IMG/VR virus record: IMGVR_UViG_3300006802_000585
Coordinates: 1-23,625 of that record
Length of the DNA: 23,625 nucleotides
From: a virus
Reading direction: 5' to 3' (one strand)
Shown: positions 13,948 to 23,506 of the stretch, piece by piece
Numbering within the stretch: the first letter of the stretch is position 1
Layout: every line of letters begins with the position of its first letter
Notes under the pieces: generated by a model
What the model saw: the letters and a program-made list of their open reading frames with translations, nothing else
Databases searched by the model: none
What the model was told of the DNA's origin: nothing
Position numbers and translations under genes: made by a program

Positions 13948-14856
13948 TTAGGCTCCGGGGGAACCGTAGATCCCCTTCGGATCAGACCAGCCGAAGCTGT
14001 ACCGAGCCGTCGCCTTGAACTTCGCATTTTCCGTGTCGAAGTCGTTGTCCATTTCGAACGCATCCGGACGCCGCTCAAAGTGCTTCAAGCCATCGTTCAC
14101 ATCCGTCAAAAGGAACCACGCATCCGAATCGGTGAGATAGTGGTTAACAATGATGTCACGCACGATGCCCATATCTTTCAGAGCATTGGCGTTATTGTTA
14201 GCCGTATCAACCTGAAGCGAGGACTTCAGAATGCGATGTGCTTCAAACATGAGTTGCGGCGGGATGACAAGCTTCGTCGGACGAGCGGCCATTTTCAGAC
14301 CACGATCATCCGTGAACGCAGCAATGTCAATCGTCGCTTGCTCAAGCGCCGCTTCCGAAAGGTCAGCAGCCGTGGTAAGTTCATTGGCAAACGTGCCACC
14401 CGCAACATTGGGGTGATCCGTCGCGCAAAGCTCTTTGCCATCTCCACCCGTGTAGGTGGAAGTGAACGCACGGTTAAGCACGTTCGCAGCAACAGTCTCT
14501 TTCGTTTGGCGCATCGACTTCGCCAGCGCACCAGCCTTCTTCTTACCAATGATGCCGTAGAGATCATCTTCGTACATCTCACGGGTAATAATGAAGCCCA
14601 GAGCATAGACAACGTGCGAGTAGCGAGTCGTGAAACCCTGCCGCATGTCATCGTAGGTGAGCGCAGCACCCTGAGTCTTTACCGAAGCAAGACCAAGGCC
14701 GCTATACGAAACATCTTCTTCGTAACTCCGCTTGGACTTGAACGTGGGGAAAATCTTGTCCCACTCAGAGGCCCAATCTTTATACGCATCACCGTACCAC
14801 TTGTTCACGCCGGGGGCAATAGCCTTGGCAAAACTCGTCGTAGTAATAAGTGCCAT
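13948..14856 (-). CDS. Major capsid protein (302 aa)
   Basis: The product is the likely major head subunit that forms the icosahedral shell, probably with the HK97 fold. It is the right size (about 300 residues), follows scaffold and decoration genes, and is followed by a strong terminator, as is usual for the most abundant virion protein. Features include the N-terminal ITTTSFAKAIAPGVNKWYGD, a mid-region FIITREMYEDDLYGIIGKKK that resembles the spine-helix region of related heads, and the C-terminal KFKATARYSFGWSDPKGIYG. The AAGGGAG ribosome site before the ATG at 14856 is strong. No protease gene is seen nearby and no long N-terminal delta domain is visible, which fits a separate scaffold. 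Assignment is by family memory and context. Confidence 0.88.
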   Translation of the reverse strand: MALITTTSFAKAIAPGVNKWYGDAYKDWASEWDKIFPTFKSKRSYEEDVSYSGLGLASVKTQGAALTYDDMRQGFTTRYSHVVYALGFIITREMYEDDLYGIIGKKKAGALAKSMRQTKETVAANVLNRAFTSTYTGGDGKELCATDHPNVAGGTFANELTTAADLSEAALEQATIDIAAFTDDRGLKMAARPTKLVIPPQLMFEAHRILKSSLQVDTANNNANALKDMGIVRDIIVNHYLTDSDAWFLLTDVNDGLKHFERRPDAFEMDNDFDTENAKFKATARYSFGWSDPKGIYGSPGA

Positions 14857-17359: not shown

Positions 17360-19399
17360 CTATTTAGGCTTCGCCTTCTGAACCGCCGCCTTCTGTGCGG
17401 CCTGTACCATCTGCTGCCGATGTTGCATTTCTTTATGCATCATCTTTTGCTGCGACCCCATCGCTTCAGCTTGGATTTTCTGTCCTGACTGCTGCTCTAG
17501 GGCTTTTGCCTTCAACATTCCCAAGATTTGTTCTTGTTGGATCTTTATCTTGGACTTCTCCGCTTCAGCTTGCATCTTCTGCTGAGACTCAGCGGCCCTG
17601 ATCTTCATCTTCCCCTGCTCATTCATGACCCGCATTTGTGATTCTTGTTGTTTGATCTGAGCTTCCGCCTTCATCCTCTCAGCCTCAGGATCAGGCTTCT
17701 GCTGCGGTTGCATGATGAGCTTCTCCGGGTTCGGGATCTCATACGCTTCCATGTACATCTGCGTGAACGCCATAGGATTCAGCGTACCCAACTGCAACAG
17801 CTTGCCGAGTTGCTCCACCTTCGCTTGCTTCTCCTGCTGAGAAACAGCAGCAGGATCAGCAGCAGGGATGATGTCGTCTTCCGGCCCTTGGAAGTCAGAC
17901 TGTTGAACCTGACCATCAAGGACACTAACCATAACCTGAGGATCCAGATACACCTTGTTCAGCCTGTAGAGCTTACGGAACTCGGCTTGCATTGAACGGA
18001 AGATCCGTTTGTAGACAGCCGTGAATACCTTCATCCCCTGCTCAATAGAGGCCTGAGTAGTAGTGGCCGGAGTGTTCTGTCCCGGCATCTTGCCAGTAAA
18101 AATCTCAGCTACCGAAGCCAATTCCTTGCCACTCTGCACAAGGAACGTCATCAACTCAAACAACACCTTTGACGGTTCCCGTGTTGGAAGAGGCATGATT
18201 CCATTCTTCAGGTCTTGCCCGGTAGCATTGACATGCTTCCATTCACCCGGAGTAAACCGGGTTTCTCCCAACCGCAATCTCAACCCCTTAGCCAAGAAAC
18301 CAGCCTGTAGAGTATGGAGAGAACCGCCGTCAATCAACTGGTTGATCAGCGTGTCAACGGCGTCGTTGATCGGGCCGAGCAGCCTACCAAACCCAATGTC
18401 GTAAAAGCCACCATCGGGGTTCGGCACGAATCCATACTTGGTGTAATACTGTTGCGGCTTGATCTTAAGAATCTCGTTATCCGAATTAAAAGAGACATCT
18501 TCTTTGGTAAACCGAGCCACAATGCGCAGCACCTTACGGCTGTTCTTCTCAATGGTTACGATGTACGGTTCTGCATAACCATCCTTATCCAGATCCAAAT
18601 AACAATGCTGTTCCAAGATCATGTACGGAGTAGTGGTATCCACCTTCTCCGGTTGATTAAGCTGTGACGGGTTAGTGCCTGTGTTCCCCGAGAGGTTATT
18701 CTCAAGAACAGGATCACCAAGATCACAATCATAGTACAACCCCGCAAGCACCTTCTCGCGGATCTTGCGTTTGTTCATGTAGCGAATCTCAGTAATCCGC
18801 TCCACATCGTCAAGGGACTTGGCCCAATAATTGACGATAAGTTCTTTCGGCATGACGAGGACTGAAACATTGCGTCCCAATTCGGGATCAAACAAAGTCT
18901 TCTTGAACATCGTGCCGACAATAGGCAGCGTGATCAGAAGCCTGTCATGCTCCTCTTCCCACTCCTCCATCTCGTCCATGATCTGCCAAGACATGAACTT
19001 GGAGACTCTGTGCGCTCGCGCAGCCTTCTCCCCCGTGGGATCATACCCTACTACTTTTGCCTTGACGATATTCCCATGTGCAGGAACCAACGAAGGATAT
19101 GCCCTAGCAGCAAACTGCATCGAAGCAGTAGCCAGCAGCGGGTACTTCACATTGGAAGCATTGGGCCACGGCCAAGACTTGACTGACGCAATCTGAATGG
19201 CAAGCTTAGTCCAATTGTCCAGAAGGGTATCGAATTCCATCCTGCTCTTGAGATCCAAGTCATACCCGTCATAGACGGTAGTACCGATCTCACCCAACTC
19301 CTCCTCGTCCAATTCCTCAGCGAGATTAACGCTATTCAGAATGGTATCGAGATCCAAGCCCTTTTCCTTGCTTTCCTCAGCCTTTGTTTCGTCGTCCAT
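17360..19399 (-). CDS. Portal protein (679 aa)
   Basis: This is the dodecameric gate at one head vertex, through which DNA is packaged and ejected. It directly follows the large terminase gene, has the expected length for podovirus portals with an extended C-terminus, and shows typical segments: SWPWPNASNVKYPLLATAS at 75-93, a clip/stem-like middle around residues 330-400 (GFGRLLGPINDAVDTLINQL) and TTTQASIEQGMKVFTAVYKR further on. The last ~115 residues are a Gln, Lys, Met and Ala-rich coiled coil (EAERMKAEAQIKQQESQMR and repeats), which may form the long barrel reaching into the head. AAAGGA precedes the ATG at 19399. No truncation is visible. Confidence 0.9.
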   Translation of the reverse strand: MDDETKAEESKEKGLDLDTILNSVNLAEELDEEELGEIGTTVYDGYDLDLKSRMEFDTLLDNWTKLAIQIASVKSWPWPNASNVKYPLLATASMQFAARAYPSLVPAHGNIVKAKVVGYDPTGEKAARAHRVSKFMSWQIMDEMEEWEEEHDRLLITLPIVGTMFKKTLFDPELGRNVSVLVMPKELIVNYWAKSLDDVERITEIRYMNKRKIREKVLAGLYYDCDLGDPVLENNLSGNTGTNPSQLNQPEKVDTTTPYMILEQHCYLDLDKDGYAEPYIVTIEKNSRKVLRIVARFTKEDVSFNSDNEILKIKPQQYYTKYGFVPNPDGGFYDIGFGRLLGPINDAVDTLINQLIDGGSLHTLQAGFLAKGLRLRLGETRFTPGEWKHVNATGQDLKNGIMPLPTREPSKVLFELMTFLVQSGKELASVAEIFTGKMPGQNTPATTTQASIEQGMKVFTAVYKRIFRSMQAEFRKLYRLNKVYLDPQVMVSVLDGQVQQSDFQGPEDDIIPAADPAAVSQQEKQAKVEQLGKLLQLGTLNPMAFTQMYMEAYEIPNPEKLIMQPQQKPDPEAERMKAEAQIKQQESQMRVMNEQGKMKIRAAESQQKMQAEAEKSKIKIQQEQILGMLKAKALEQQSGQKIQAEAMGSQQKMMHKEMQHRQQMVQAAQKAAVQKAKPK

Positions 19400-19407
19400 G
19401 AGATCCT

Positions 19408-20952
19408 TTAGTATCCAGTAGTAGCGTTTCGTCCCAAATCCAGCATACCAGACTGTATGATATCTTCTTCTTTTGCATCATCCACTACCTCTGCCTCAGT
19501 TCTACCCTCAGCCATTCTGTCGAGTAGTAGGCCCATATAGCTGGTAGCGTCTACACAGTCGTCGTGCTTCGATCTTGGAAACTGCATCATCTCTTCTTCA
19601 TACACGGGCCACCATTCCGCCCCGGTATTAAACTTGACCGCACCAGCCCGCATACGAGCTTGAATGGATCTTGCTCTAGTTACCTTATCAGATCTATAGG
19701 GACTCATGCCAATGATGTTGGGATATGAGTCCCTTTCCAACATCGCTTTATTGATGATTGGCCCAAGAGACTTGGTAATCATCATGTCTTCGATCCCGAA
19801 GGCCACAGGATTGTACGCTTTCTGCAACGCGAAAATGGTTTCTATGATAGCTATGGCATCCATTCTCTCTCGGATAAGGTGTTCAATGTAGAGGTGTCCC
19901 TCTGCATCCATACCGCCTACCAAGAACACGGAGAAGTCAGCCTTGTCTCTTTCCGAGATTGCCAAGTCCACCGTGATGTAATAGTTTTTCTCCTTTTTCA
20001 GATCCTCTTCCTTCATCGAAAGGAAGTCTCCCTTCTTGAAGAAGCGAATCGAGTCATCTACGGGGTTACAGAGATACTCACAAGAGTACACTTCTGGTAT
20101 CCCTTGAGCCGCAAAGTCAGCCCTAAGAGCCTCAAAGTCCTCCTTCCTCTTGCGCTCAGGCCAGAGGATGTGAGCAAAGTCCCTGCTATGCGCACGGTAC
20201 TTGGCGCTACGCCACATTCCGATCTTCTTCGGACTCCAAATCTTAAGAGGCGTAACGATAGTATCCCTGCTAGTCTCCTTGGGCATCAGAGACTCTAGGG
20301 GATCATCCATGTTCATCGGAGTACCGACGAACCTTACAATCCCATCCTCGCTCCTGCAAGGTAGCAACGAACCATATACCCACCTTCTAAGCTTGTCCCG
20401 CCTAGCCTTGTTCATGACCAGTTCTTCATTCATCAGGTCATCTATCAGGATCAGGTCTGGTCTTGAACCATCCCACAACAGGCCACGAAGCTTCTGCTCC
20501 GCACCCTTGGCTACTATCCTGAACTTCTTCCCATCCCTGAACTTCACTATGATGTCGGTTTCCGTATCTTTCTCAAAGTCCGGTTCCCCGTTCTCATCCA
20601 TAGCCAAGTCAAAGAGGCTATGAATCTCCTTGGAATCCATGATCATTTGTTTGATCTGGCCCAAGAAGAGGGAGGCCTGTGACTCGGTATCCGCGACAAT
20701 CAGGCCATACCTCCTATTACGGAATAGCATCGCTGTTAGCGTATAAACTACCGTAATCGTTGTAGACTTGCTATGCGCTCGTGGCGCACAGATAGCTACA
20801 AACTTATCGTCTGAAGTGCAGTACTCCCACCACTCCCTATGAAACCGTGTAAAGGGACTAGGGTTATCAAAGTACCTCACCAGACAGCTAGATGCAAATC
20901 CCTCAATCAGTTGTGCATCCAGCTTTACATAATCCTTCCTTCTAACGTCCAC
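19408..20952 (-). CDS. terL: Terminase large subunit, ATPase and nuclease (514 aa)
   Basis: The motor protein pumps DNA into the prohead and cuts it. The ATPase half shows a Walker A of the terminase type (APRAHSKST, residues 56-64), Walker B with catalytic acids (LILIDD, 167-172) and the coupling motif FVGTPMN (208-214). The RNase H-like nuclease half has the acidic triad candidates D329 (ITVDLAIS), E388 (FGIEDMM) and D464/D465/D468 (KHDDCVDA). All key residues are present and the length is normal. The best start is GTG at 20952, which overlaps the upstream stop by 11 nt and has AGGGAAAGG just before it. The gene order small terminase, HNH-like, large terminase, portal is typical of phages. 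Confidence 0.95.
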   Translation of the reverse strand: MDVRRKDYVKLDAQLIEGFASSCLVRYFDNPSPFTRFHREWWEYCTSDDKFVAICAPRAHSKSTTITVVYTLTAMLFRNRRYGLIVADTESQASLFLGQIKQMIMDSKEIHSLFDLAMDENGEPDFEKDTETDIIVKFRDGKKFRIVAKGAEQKLRGLLWDGSRPDLILIDDLMNEELVMNKARRDKLRRWVYGSLLPCRSEDGIVRFVGTPMNMDDPLESLMPKETSRDTIVTPLKIWSPKKIGMWRSAKYRAHSRDFAHILWPERKRKEDFEALRADFAAQGIPEVYSCEYLCNPVDDSIRFFKKGDFLSMKEEDLKKEKNYYITVDLAISERDKADFSVFLVGGMDAEGHLYIEHLIRERMDAIAIIETIFALQKAYNPVAFGIEDMMITKSLGPIINKAMLERDSYPNIIGMSPYRSDKVTRARSIQARMRAGAVKFNTGAEWWPVYEEEMMQFPRSKHDDCVDATSYMGLLLDRMAEGRTEAEVVDDAKEEDIIQSGMLDLGRNATTGY

Positions 20953-21250
20953 GCCTTTCCCTCTTCGAAGTCTCTGACCTCATCGCCCCTTTGCTGGTAC
21001 GAGAGAATGACCTATTAGCAGAGGGAGACTGCACGAACAGATTACCCAGATAGTTAGACCCACCCTTAGATACAGCCCTGCGGTGTCCAACATCTCCACG
21101 AATACTCTTGGGGGATACTCCACGACCCTTCGCCACAATAGCCCTAGCAGCGTTCCTGTGAGCGCGATCCTTTACCCGATTTGGTTTTCGCCTGTGTTCC
21201 CACTTAAGCTCCTTCCGGTAGTCCCTCTTGCCGTTCGTCATGTAGGGCAT
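20942..21250 (-). CDS. HNH-like endonuclease fold protein between terminase subunits (102 aa)
   Basis: The protein is very basic. Residues 53-80 read DVGHRRAVSKGG, SNYLGN and SANR, which fits an HNH core (H56, N66/N70, N79) without the zinc Cys pairs. The preceding segment (KDRAHRNAARAIVAKGRGVS) is the lead often seen in this small phage family. HNH proteins beside terminase genes are known to assist packaging in some phages. It overlaps the small terminase by 47 nt and the large terminase by 11 nt, so all three are likely co-translated. An AAAGG site lies before the ATG at 21250; ATG at 21241 is an alternative start. Catalytic activity is not certain. Confidence 0.78.
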   Translation of the reverse strand: MPYMTNGKRDYRKELKWEHRRKPNRVKDRAHRNAARAIVAKGRGVSPKSIRGDVGHRRAVSKGGSNYLGNLFVQSPSANRSFSRTSKGAMRSETSKRERRGR

Positions 21251-21785
21251 GGTCTATAACCTTTTCTTCCTTTTCCTTAGCCTTCACAAAAGCCTTGAAA
21301 CTGTCAGCCAAACGAGACAACTGCTTCTCAAGCCTAGCCGTATCCCCGATCTCCTCCTCCTGAGGAAGAGTCTCCTTCTCCAAAACTAGTCTCCGGTCAA
21401 GAAGCGTAGTTGCGATCTTATTAAGTGCAGCAGCAGATACGGGAACACGAGCAAGCTCACCACTACGAGGATTGTACACCCAATCCCCATCTGAAAGACG
21501 AGTTCTAATACCTTCAATAGCCTGATCCACCAACGAAGAAATCTTCGATGCAGTCTCATTGTTCTGCTCTGCCCGTAGTTGTTTTTCTAGTTCCTCCCAC
21601 CACGGGGAGCGACGCTTCCACGACCACAAAGTATTCAGAGGGATCTGGGTAATATCCCTAACCTTGGCCATCTTGCCCAAGGCAATCCAAGCAGCTACAG
21701 CTTCGTACCTCTTCTCGTCTGACCAGATACCCTGCTGGTCGGGTTCAGTCCTGAGGTGCTTACTCAAATCCTTACGATTGAACAT
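21204..21785 (-). CDS. terS: Terminase small subunit, DNA-binding (193 aa)
   Basis: The product probably recognises the packaging site and regulates the large subunit. A helix-turn-helix-like segment lies near residues 30-55 (ALGKMAKVRDITQIPLNTLW, then SWKRRSPWWEELEKQL), and the C-terminal part is helical with a charged tail (RLADSFKAFVKAKEKEEKVI), as in other small terminases. I chose ATG 21785 (MFNRKDLSK), which overlaps the upstream gene by 14 nt with AAGAGAG directly before it. The frame runs to 21863, but that extra part only mirrors the upstream gene and is hydrophobic in a way unlike this family. Location just before the HNH and large terminase genes supports the call. Confidence 0.82.
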   Translation of the reverse strand: MFNRKDLSKHLRTEPDQQGIWSDEKRYEAVAAWIALGKMAKVRDITQIPLNTLWSWKRRSPWWEELEKQLRAEQNNETASKISSLVDQAIEGIRTRLSDGDWVYNPRSGELARVPVSAAALNKIATTLLDRRLVLEKETLPQEEEIGDTARLEKQLSRLADSFKAFVKAKEKEEKVIDHALHDERQEGLPEGA

Positions 21786-22068
21786 CTCTCTTAAAAGCCT
21801 GTATTGGTATCTCAGCCAACCAGCCATTAGCCAGTAGAACGTACACGATCCCGGTATTCCCATTCACCATCCAACACCCTGTTTGGGTAGTACCCCCAAC
21901 CGAGGCTAGGGCTTGCTTCCACCCCGGAATGGTAAACGTTTTACACGCGTCTTCGATGACAGTCACCGAGGATCCATTGGCGTCCGAGGTGGAGTAACTA
22001 GCCTTCTCTTCCGCGACGACAGGAGCAGCTACTAAGACAGTAATGAGCGGAGCTAGGCGTAGCGACAT
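21772..22068 (-). CDS. Small exported protein of unknown function, first gene of the late operon (98 aa)
   Basis: The N-terminus MSLRLAPLITVLVAAPVVA is a clear signal peptide, with likely cleavage after residue 19 before EEKASYS. The mature part has two Cys (about residues 42 and 59, a possible disulphide), a Trp-rich stretch and a strand-like end (IVYVLLANGWLAEIPIQAF). A periplasmic or envelope location in a Gram-negative host is inferred. GGAG lies about 10 nt before the ATG at 22068. The gene overlaps the small terminase start by 14 nt, which is odd partnering for a secreted protein. Superinfection exclusion, lysis timing or surface change are guesses; I do not recognise the family. Confidence 0.75.
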   Translation of the reverse strand: MSLRLAPLITVLVAAPVVAEEKASYSTSDANGSSVTVIEDACKTFTIPGWKQALASVGGTTQTGCWMVNGNTGIVYVLLANGWLAEIPIQAFKRDVQS

Positions 22069-22320
22069 GAGAGTTGTTCTCCTTTATGTCACCTTTAGAC
22101 AACAAAACCAAAAGAAAGTTCCCTTAAAAGACAGATATTTACAAAGAAGTATTCTAAGTACTTGATTATTAAGTATTCTATAAACCTAATATATATATTA
22201 TAATTATATATCTTTTATTATATATATTTTTTTGTTTCAATTATATAGTATTTATTATAATAAGACTTTATTTTATTCCCCCTTATTTCAATGCCAACCT
22301 AGAGACTACAATAGTAAACC
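22069..22320 (-). promoter_or_regulatory. AT-rich leader upstream of the late operon, probable promoter region
   Basis: The stretch has no gene and is almost pure A/T between about 22180 and 22270, with many TATAAT-like words on the minus strand and one TTGAAA. The 10-bp word AAGTATTCTA occurs twice, at 22147-22156 and 22171-22180, and AAGTACTT (22156-22163) is a palindrome between them. No single promoter can be chosen, since -10-like words are too frequent. It is the only sizeable gap before the leftward late genes, so a late promoter here is likely by inference. Confidence 0.5.
22147..22180. repeat. Direct repeat pair AAGTATTCTA in the late leader
   Basis: Two identical 10-bp words, starts 24 bp apart, flank the palindrome AAGTACTT. 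Such spacing (just over two helical turns) would place bound proteins on nearly the same face of DNA, so an operator for a late activator is possible. The AT-rich setting makes chance repeats more likely. Confidence 0.4.
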
Positions 22321-22343
22321 CATCCCCTCCCCCCAAGGGGATG
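22321..22343. other. CATCCCC/GGGGATG hairpin at the edge of the C-rich block
   Basis: A 7-bp perfect stem with a 9-nt loop (TCCCCCCAA). No T-run follows in either direction that would make it a convincing terminator. It marks the junction between the AT-rich leader and the C-rich block. Confidence 0.45.
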
Positions 22344-22617
22344 ATCTGTAAGATCCTCCCATTACTCATACCATTTTAATCCCCCCCATTACTCAGAACG
22401 TTTTTAGGATTTCAAAAATCCAAAAAATTTTGTCATGGTGTCCATCATCTAAAGTCAATCTCTCTTTTTTCCCCCCACCCCCCTTCTTATGCCCTTAAAA
22501 CCCATCCTCCTGCCCTCCATACGCATCTCCTACCCCCACCATGTACTCCCCCACATGCCCTTACTCTGCGCATTGCCTTGCCCTGTTTCCTTTCGAATTT
22601 GGATTGGTCTTTAATTC
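22344..22617. other. Gene-free block with a C-rich, G-poor plus strand
   Basis: No gene is visible. In 22441-22560 the plus strand has about 58 C and only 6 G, with runs of six or seven C at about 22381 and 22471-22483. The minus strand therefore carries several G-runs close together and could form a G-quadruplex. The block lies between two oppositely directed transcription units. Confidence 0.7.
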
Positions 22618-22720
22618 TGCACCATTTTGGTGCATGATTGATTAGGTTAGTAACCACTCACATACTGATCAGATACTTACATCCTAGTCCAATCCACCAA
22701 ATCATGCACTATAATGCACT
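22618..22720. promoter_or_regulatory. Cluster of GTGCA/TGCAC sites with hairpin, possible operator
   Basis: TGCACCA-TTT-TGGTGCA is a perfect 7-bp hairpin at 22618-22634. The word GTGCATGATT at 22630-22639 is repeated in inverted orientation at 22700-22709 (AATCATGCAC), and TGCACT occurs twice around a TATAAT (22705-22720). Four GTGCA-type sites in about 100 bp suggest a protein-binding cluster such as an operator or origin iterons. No good -35 box is seen for the TATAAT, so a promoter is uncertain. Confidence 0.45.
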
Positions 22721-22848
22721 AGATCCAAAGGCAGTATGCCTCGCTGTTGCTATTAGGACTCCGCTCGACTCGCTAATGCGTAATTGAGTCCTCGCTGTCG
22801 CTCGGACTAGATAACGGGCGAGTCTCGGTGGCCCGTCATGCCCACGAT

Positions 22849-22866
22849 TGTCGCTCCGCGACAACT
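22849..22866 (+). repeat. 18-bp exact repeat, copy 1
   Basis: TGTCGCTCCGCGACAACT occurs here and again at 23219-23236, 370 bp away. The first 15 bases are a self-complementary hairpin with a TCC loop. No gene overlaps either copy. Confidence 0.85.
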
Positions 22867-23218
22867 GCATTCTAGTTCCTGCCTCGCATACTCGCACTCG
22901 CTCGCCAACTACGCTCGCTCGTAAACGCTGCGTGTGCGAGTCAGTTAGCGTTCGCTTCGCTCACTATCTTAGGGCATGACTACCCGCTCAGGCCGCTAGG
23001 GCCGACTTATGAACTGCTCCGACAGGATTATGTTACATCCCTCGCAATGCGCCTATGTCAAGGCTACGGCCTCGCTGCGCCCTTTAGAGCAAGAAGCACG
23101 ATCCTCGCTTCGCTCGGATAAACATCTCATTCAGACATTACTAATAAGGTCGGTCATTCATCGGGCCATAGCGCGGGGCGCAGTCTACGGCCTCGGCCCT
23201 CTATTCAGACCCAAAGGA

Positions 23219-23236
23219 TGTCGCTCCGCGACAACT
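23219..23236 (+). repeat. 18-bp exact repeat, copy 2
   Basis: This is the second identical copy of the 18-bp word at 22849-22866, in the same orientation. Copy 1 has one extra stem pair on its outside, which this copy lacks. Confidence 0.85.
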
Positions 23237-23256
23237 ACTGAATCGCTACGCTCGAT

Positions 23257-23398
23257 AACTTAGATATGTTATCCTATCAATCCGCGATTCAAGTTAGTCT
23301 AGAGGGCAACCTTGAGCATAGCGCATTGCTGCGGTGTCTCCGTTCCTTGTCGTCGCAATCATAAGTCCAATGCAAATACTTCAGACAGGAGAACAAGA
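23257..23398 (+). other. Leader of the rightward transcript, no gene seen
   Basis: I see no gene and no confident promoter here. The stretch ends in the AGGAG ribosome site of the 35-residue membrane protein. A TTGAGC word near 23311 lacks a matching -10 box. Confidence 0.4.
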
Positions 23399-23506
23399 AT
23401 GGAAACACTTGAAAATATCTTAGGAGTGCTACTCATGGCTTTCCTAGGCTTGGTAGCGTTAATGGCTGTTATCCTCTTCTTCCGTGAAATAACCGGAGGC
23501 ATCTGA
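23399..23506 (+). CDS. Tiny single-span membrane protein (35 aa)
   Basis: The frame reads METLENILGVLLMAFLGLVA, then LMAVILFFREITGGI. One hydrophobic helix covers about residues 8-27, with an acidic N-terminus and a charged C-terminal end. AGGAG lies 7 nt before the ATG at 23399, at good spacing. The frame is open upstream to 23312, but that part has no ribosome site and a very different composition. It is the first gene on the plus strand after the long intergenic zone and is followed directly by another tiny membrane gene. Function is unknown; host membrane interference or lysis control are possibilities. Confidence 0.72.
   Translation: METLENILGVLLMAFLGLVALMAVILFFREITGGI

Follow-up and report, generated by a model that had tools for sequence, protein, structure and literature searches.

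What is a cluster of very small hairpins doing in the non-coding gap of a phage genome, and how can its stems differ from one another while the loop stays the same? The window analyzed here is a 23,625-base fragment from an uncultured tailed phage, in which the head and packaging genes are read leftward (Table 1). The leftward unit begins at position 22068 and the first rightward frame that has a ribosome-binding site at 23399; the 1.3-kb gap between these divergent units (22068–23399) contains no convincing gene. The original prediction placed the array between divergent transcription units with no gene to explain it, and that placement holds. The left half of the gap is AT-rich and then strongly C-rich, and the right half, with a GC content of ~55%, bears the array. 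Between 22280 and 22560, C lies far above G and forms runs; one 100-nt bin contains 52 C and 6 G. Immediately to the left of the array, an operator-like 17-nt inverted repeat (88%; 22623–22639 and 22700–22716) surrounds repeated GTGCAT words. The gene between the small-terminase-position gene (TerS) and the large terminase gene (TerL), at 20942–21250 on the minus strand, is assigned to phrog_4590, a family of unassigned function; it resembles an HNH protein and has no Pfam match. The right-hand unit opens with two very short plus-strand frames (23399–23506 and 23508 onward) that resemble single-span membrane peptides.

Table 1. Features of the window and of the hairpin array (elements written 5' to 3' on the minus strand unless stated otherwise)
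Feature	Position	Strand	Description
Capsid gene	13948–14856	minus	
Portal gene	17360–19399	minus	
Large terminase gene (TerL)	19408–20952	minus	
Small-terminase-position gene (TerS)	21204–21863	minus	relatives match at 24–47% identity
AT-rich then C-rich non-coding stretch	22069–22700		5' of the terminase operon; AT tract and gap recur in relatives without the array
Whole array	22740–23260	minus	GC about 55%; every apex on the minus strand
E7	22787–22808	minus	AGTCC-[GA-GC-GACA-GC-GA]-GGACT; GNNA apex, tandem G.A pairs, 5-bp stem; plus strand AGTCC-TCGCTGTCGCTC-GGACT
E6	22848–22864	minus	TTGTCGC-GGA-GCGACAA; GGA apex, perfect 7-bp stem; plus strand TTGTCGC-TCC-GCGACAA
E5	22950–22964	minus	GT-[GA-GC-GAA-GC-GA]-AC; GAA apex, tandem G.A pairs, 2-bp stem
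E4	23074–23080	minus	GCGCAGC apex (GCA); no matched outer stem
E3	23101–23119	minus	ATCC-[GA-GC-GAA-GC-GA]-GGAT; plus strand ATCC-TCGCTTCGCTC-GGAT
E2	23219–23233	minus	TGTCGC-GGA-GCGACA; perfect hairpin; plus strand TGTCGC-TCC-GCGACA
E1	23242–23256	minus	core GAGCGTAGCGA (23243–23253), GTA apex; alternative ATCG/CGAT pairing; plus strand ATCG-CTACGCT-CGAT

The array is composed of six or seven very small hairpins with a common loop of an unusually stable DNA class and with different, mostly complementary stems. Between 22787 and 23256, the minus strand carries six d(GC-GNA-GC) apexes (GAA twice, GGA twice, GTA and GCA) and one GC-GNNA-GC apex (GACA); the plus strand of the array carries no GNA or GNNA apex. 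The inverted repeats named in the original prediction (E7, E3 and E1) are present as described, and two further perfect hairpins, E6 and E2, belong with them. E4 and E5 are nearly or wholly without a stem. In several elements, a tandem GA/GA mismatch separates the apex from the stem, and the C-GA-G context of such tandem G.A mismatches favours sheared pairs. The only unit duplicated within the fragment is an 18-nt direct repeat, TGTCGCTCCGCGACAACT, the first copy of which spans 22849–22866 and the second of which takes in E2. Loops of the GNA and GNNA type, when seated on two G-C pairs, are reported to form extraordinarily stable DNA mini-hairpins, with GCGAAGC melting at 78°C (PMC4686876). 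In all seven array apexes, the loop is of this type and is closed by at least two G-C pairs. Judged by loop class and by predicted folding energy, the apexes are putative ultrastable DNA loops, a class marked in single-stranded form by exceptional thermal stability and nuclease resistance.

The array is a statistically strong feature, rightly read in its core and its varying paired stems and misdescribed in its density. The core GCTNCGC has six plus-strand copies in 22735–23260 and no minus-strand copy, and none of 5000 shuffles, with a mean of 0.77, reaches six. Three copies of TCGCTNCGCTC lie in the array, where 0.017 are expected (0/5000 dinucleotide shuffles). TCGCT is found 14 times in the 526-nt array region and 13 times in the preceding 22 kb, and the AGCGA orientation never occurs inside the array. 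The original prediction also counted at least eight short inverted repeats in 500 bp, a reading to be dropped if shuffled sequence of equal composition proved as dense. By that criterion the density part is refuted: 19 perfect inverted repeats have a stem of 4 bp or more and a loop of 3–12 nt, against 18.1 in dinucleotide shuffles, and 3 have a stem of 6 bp or more, against 1.1, a count reached in 20 of 200 shuffles. Chance palindromes in a GC-rich, CTCGCT-rich stretch would give just this ordinary density, but they are a very improbable explanation of a core count and strand bias seen in 0/5000 dinucleotide shuffles and of the same core recurring elsewhere with paired, varying stems.

Because a single sequence cannot show covariation, the claim of a conserved loop on changing but paired stems was examined on other contigs. 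Viral contigs were found mainly through the fixed 15-mer CCTCGCTTCGCTCGG; these seeds were masked, which left the other copies of GAGCGNAGCGA on those contigs for analysis. Among these 55 non-seed copies, 42% have a paired flank of at least 3 bp, built from 14 different stem trinucleotides, as compared with 4.5% for shuffled partners (16% in the highest of 2000 shuffles) and 5% for the same frame with any other, non-GNA loop. The 22 genome loci with this core behave alike, with paired flanks in 45% vs 4.8%. Core copies share a single orientation within most, indeed nearly every, viral contig. Bacterial and archaeal genomes contain the exact 19-mer of E3 (ATCC-core-GGAT) in 79 stretches, where chance is estimated to give about 2 in 257 billion bases. 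An array-like architecture, mostly in one orientation and with changing stems, is seen in Eubacterium (L152), in Lachnospiraceae (L253) and in two contigs of viral origin, L058 and L064. In the three other contigs that contain TTGTCGCTCCGCGACAA, the sequence stands alone, with no array next to it. The claim stands for the core on other contigs, where unrelated phages, bacteria and archaea combine this loop with varying stems, but the array itself is absent from related phages.

Longer haloarchaeal palindromes with the same apex give a further measure of how the stems vary. Eight of 13 outer pairs changed on both sides, and two-sided changes outnumber one-sided changes by 13 to 1, a result reached in 0/500 shuffles. 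Strong two-sided covariation of the outer stem was noted in L131, L137, L139, L141, L142, L144, L153, L161, L174 and L191. In four contigs (L133, L135, L176 and L205), the haloarchaeal element lies next to tRNA genes and apparent duplicated tRNA 3' ends, suggesting that these tRNA-adjacent elements mark integration sites. The idea that the haloarchaeal copies are parts of tRNAs was rejected, as they lie near tRNA genes and not inside them. A Lachnospiraceae chromosome (L255, G001:C1 about 1962257–1962819) holds 13 copies of ATGTCATCCT-GAGCGNAGCGA-AGGATCTTAGC at a regular 46 bp spacing, and these differ mainly at the variable base of the loop.

The pattern is not universal and is limited to some lineages. 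In an unselected genome draw, the core flanks pair at 32% and 30% (null, 27% and 25%). The share of C(GNA)G among long-stem triloop hairpins corresponds to an odds ratio of 0.8 in ~1 Mb of unselected genomes and 1.2 in related phages; in one Lachnospiraceae genome, the loop is enriched with odds ratios of 2.3 to 3.1. A universal preference of hairpins for GNA loops was rejected on unselected sequence, the earlier positive result having rested on contigs selected for the core.

How the stems change can be followed in two phages, L121 and L478, which are 96.5% identical over 12.4 kb and carry the core at many places, most of them with identical stems. At one homologous core, both arms differ and are still paired. 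At two sites, just one of the phages has the core and its stem; elsewhere one hairpin is replaced by another, and at one site the apex is swapped inside a stem that is kept. Fold-back copying or whole-hairpin replacement predicts such joint change of both arms with no intermediates, and recombination that replaced whole hairpins would also explain these differences. Under slow compensatory RNA evolution, one-sided and G.U steps would be expected. The alternative wording of the original prediction, a short element that adopts its flanks on insertion, comes close to this pattern of the same core with new paired arms. In one such phage (L121/L478), most cores lie 1–8 nt before possible start codons, where the core may supply a ribosome-binding site (GGAG/GAGG). 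Some have probably been co-opted at start codons, because 8 of the 12 cores sit in this position ahead of a long frame.

Whether DNA or RNA is the folding molecule can be approached through the pairing itself. At core flank positions 1 and 2, Watson–Crick pairing amounts to 83% and 73%, and G.T combinations over six positions occur at about half the chance level. A 531-nt stretch shows a folding excess with DNA parameters (z of −2.5 and −2.6 on the two strands), compared with −0.9 and −1.2 for RNA parameters. The Watson–Crick arms with G.T depleted, and the rewriting of both arms between 96.5%-identical phages, suggest that DNA itself, not RNA, shapes these palindromes. The original prediction of a selected RNA or DNA structure is therefore borne out in its structural reading, with the DNA half favoured by the GNA/GNNA loops, the Watson–Crick stems and the DNA-parameter folding. 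An RNA feature, in the form of a leader, attenuator, terminator or ribosome-binding hairpins, could draw on the start-codon positions in L121/L478, where the frames have at least 130 codons, and on one viral core copy with a terminator-like T run. We consider it improbable here: no core in the window precedes the start codon of a frame of at least 60 codons, the array contains no intrinsic terminator (a GC-rich stem followed by a T run), whose sole match is at 22320–22344, and it matches no Rfam covariance model. Nor is there a folding excess with RNA parameters, and G.T is depleted rather than favoured.

Related phages show whether the array is conserved. Searches with the terminase and portal proteins gave few relative loci and a TerS query gave no matches, whereas a capsid search found 80 contigs that share the capsid with this phage, all but one at 60–69% identity. 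Where it is readable, the gene order in these relatives is TerS-HNH-TerL-portal-MCP, and their matches to the HNH-like gene lie at about 40–70% identity. TerL is covered in 44 of the 80. The region upstream of TerS was inspected in the 25 phages whose contigs reach this locus: none of them has the array, and many keep the AT-rich gap. The complete Alcaligenes phage QDWS535 and a Manatee Spring phage have the same divergent gap with the AT tract and no array. The only core copy in the 80 contigs lies in the gap of one relative (L372) and has a 2-bp stem. No similar DNA was found among phages and plasmids, and a search with the first rightward gene found no other strain of this phage. Because relatives keep the gap without the array, it is an addition in this lineage. 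Its absence from 25 relatives, together with the lack of GNA enrichment in unselected genomes, indicates that the array is a lineage-specific island rather than a packaging, promoter or replication signal conserved across the family. The word ‘selected’ in the original prediction accordingly finds no backing in this phage, where relatives keep the AT-rich divergent gap and the array is missing from it.

These comparisons bear on the possibility that the array is a functional single-stranded DNA site of this phage, serving replication initiation, packaging or N4-type promoter hairpins in the gap between early and late genes. The array lies just upstream of the terminase operon with an AT-rich tract adjoining, its GNA hairpins are on the would-be template strand of the rightward unit, and the terminal repeats of a linear archaeal virus contain the core (PMC10342651). 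The retention of the gap without GNA arrays in relatives including QDWS535, with a single core in one of them, and the absence on inspection of a common start-site sequence flanking the hairpins make such a site unlikely, though a little less so than an RNA feature.

The main rival is that the elements are REP-like mobile palindromes, single-stranded DNA units moved by a Y1 (RAYT-type) or similar enzyme that have since diverged into a mixed cluster. The core does form the apex of dispersed tagged repeats, as TGTCATYCT-GAGCGNAGCGA-AGRATCTTA in Lachnospiraceae and as CGTCATTGC-core-AGCAACCC in Pseudomonadota, and the tagged core repeats match the CGTC/TGTC-tagged REP architecture described by Di Nocera and co-workers (PMC3733652). 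In addition, core orientation in a Lachnospiraceae genome (G001) follows the chromosome arm, and one element of the array is duplicated exactly. Against this, a CGTC/TGTC tag is found at none of the six elements checked and GTAG precedes only one; neighbouring stems differ, so that the elements are not copies of one unit, and in place of many near-identical copies this fragment has one duplicated unit. The window lacks Y1_Tnp, a domain found in 15 of 20 core-enriched and 11 of 20 non-enriched genomes. A link between Y1/RAYT enzymes and the core is unsupported, since they are nearly as common without enrichment. A REP-like origin is therefore possible, and we regard it as doubtful.

The account that we tentatively prefer, at somewhat short of an even chance, is a lineage-specific island of DNA mini-hairpins in which a self-folding DNA apex has its arms rewritten by fold-back copying. 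This account sets out from the observed apex class, its single orientation, the covarying Watson–Crick arms of other genomes and the concerted arm change between close phages. In single-stranded DNA, a GNA or GNNA apex would fold back unaided. If a nascent strand halted with its 3' end on such an apex, the polymerase could copy the strand's own 5' flank, and this self-copying would render the two arms complementary whatever the prior sequence. Later switches would rewrite both arms together. Palindromes would build up where no gene forbids them, and would sometimes be co-opted, e.g. at start codons or as terminators. We infer the copying step, and likewise that the same process lies behind this array.

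Some results count against fold-back copying. C(GNA)G shows no enrichment in unselected genomes, an unselected genome draw has hardly any pairing at the core, two elements of the array (E4 and E5) are almost or entirely stemless, and the variable-stem hairpins of G001 do not follow the replication strand (26 vs 20). A replication-strand rule was set aside: it held for the core in one genome, mostly in tagged repeats, and not for variable-stem hairpins. Because C(GNA)G is enriched neither in unselected genomes nor in the relatives, a general polymerase error alone would be insufficient and something lineage-specific would be needed. It is conceivable, although we think it rather unlikely, that apex-conserved mini-hairpin arrays form a DNA element class of their own, confined to certain lineages of phages, bacteria and archaea, in which the GNA apex and tandem G.A pairs nucleate folding of single-stranded DNA and direct the writing of their own arms, the loop being conserved and the stem made on the spot.

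Fold-back copying, if correct, would provide a concrete and testable source of new genomic palindromes, a self-folding DNA apex that makes its own complementary arms. It would help to account for the sharing of GAGCGNAGCGA among viral repeats and REP families that have no relationship to one another, and it would mean that stem covariation, which is commonly taken to prove a functional RNA, can arise at the DNA level. In open-licence papers, we found the core only incidentally or as single cases and no description of genomic arrays with changing stems. The array appears to belong to a wider DNA-level phenomenon that we have not found described in that literature.

Several known systems share parts of this design. 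Template-switch quasi-palindrome mutagenesis is a proposed source of paired arms by intra-strand copying. Compared with that process and with the excess of small inverted repeats in prokaryotes, the apex here is fixed, the arms vary and only some lineages are involved. The promoters of the bacteriophage N4 virion RNA polymerase also consist of small hairpins that work as DNA, their three-base loops being rich in purines; the array differs in having no conserved sequence between hairpin and start, and that giant polymerase was not seen in the 23.6-kb fragment. The CGTC/TGTC- and GTAG-tagged REP sequences are also short extragenic palindromes in clusters (PMC3733652), whereas the elements of the window have no CGTC/TGTC tags, are not one repeated unit and are accompanied by no visible Y1 transposase. 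A further match is to the d(GCGAAGC)-type mini-hairpins of Hirao, Yoshizawa and co-workers (PMC4686876), with which the array apexes agree exactly in sequence and loop class. Those GNA and GNNA mini-hairpins are known from oligonucleotide studies, and here they are found in genomes, as arrays with changing stems.
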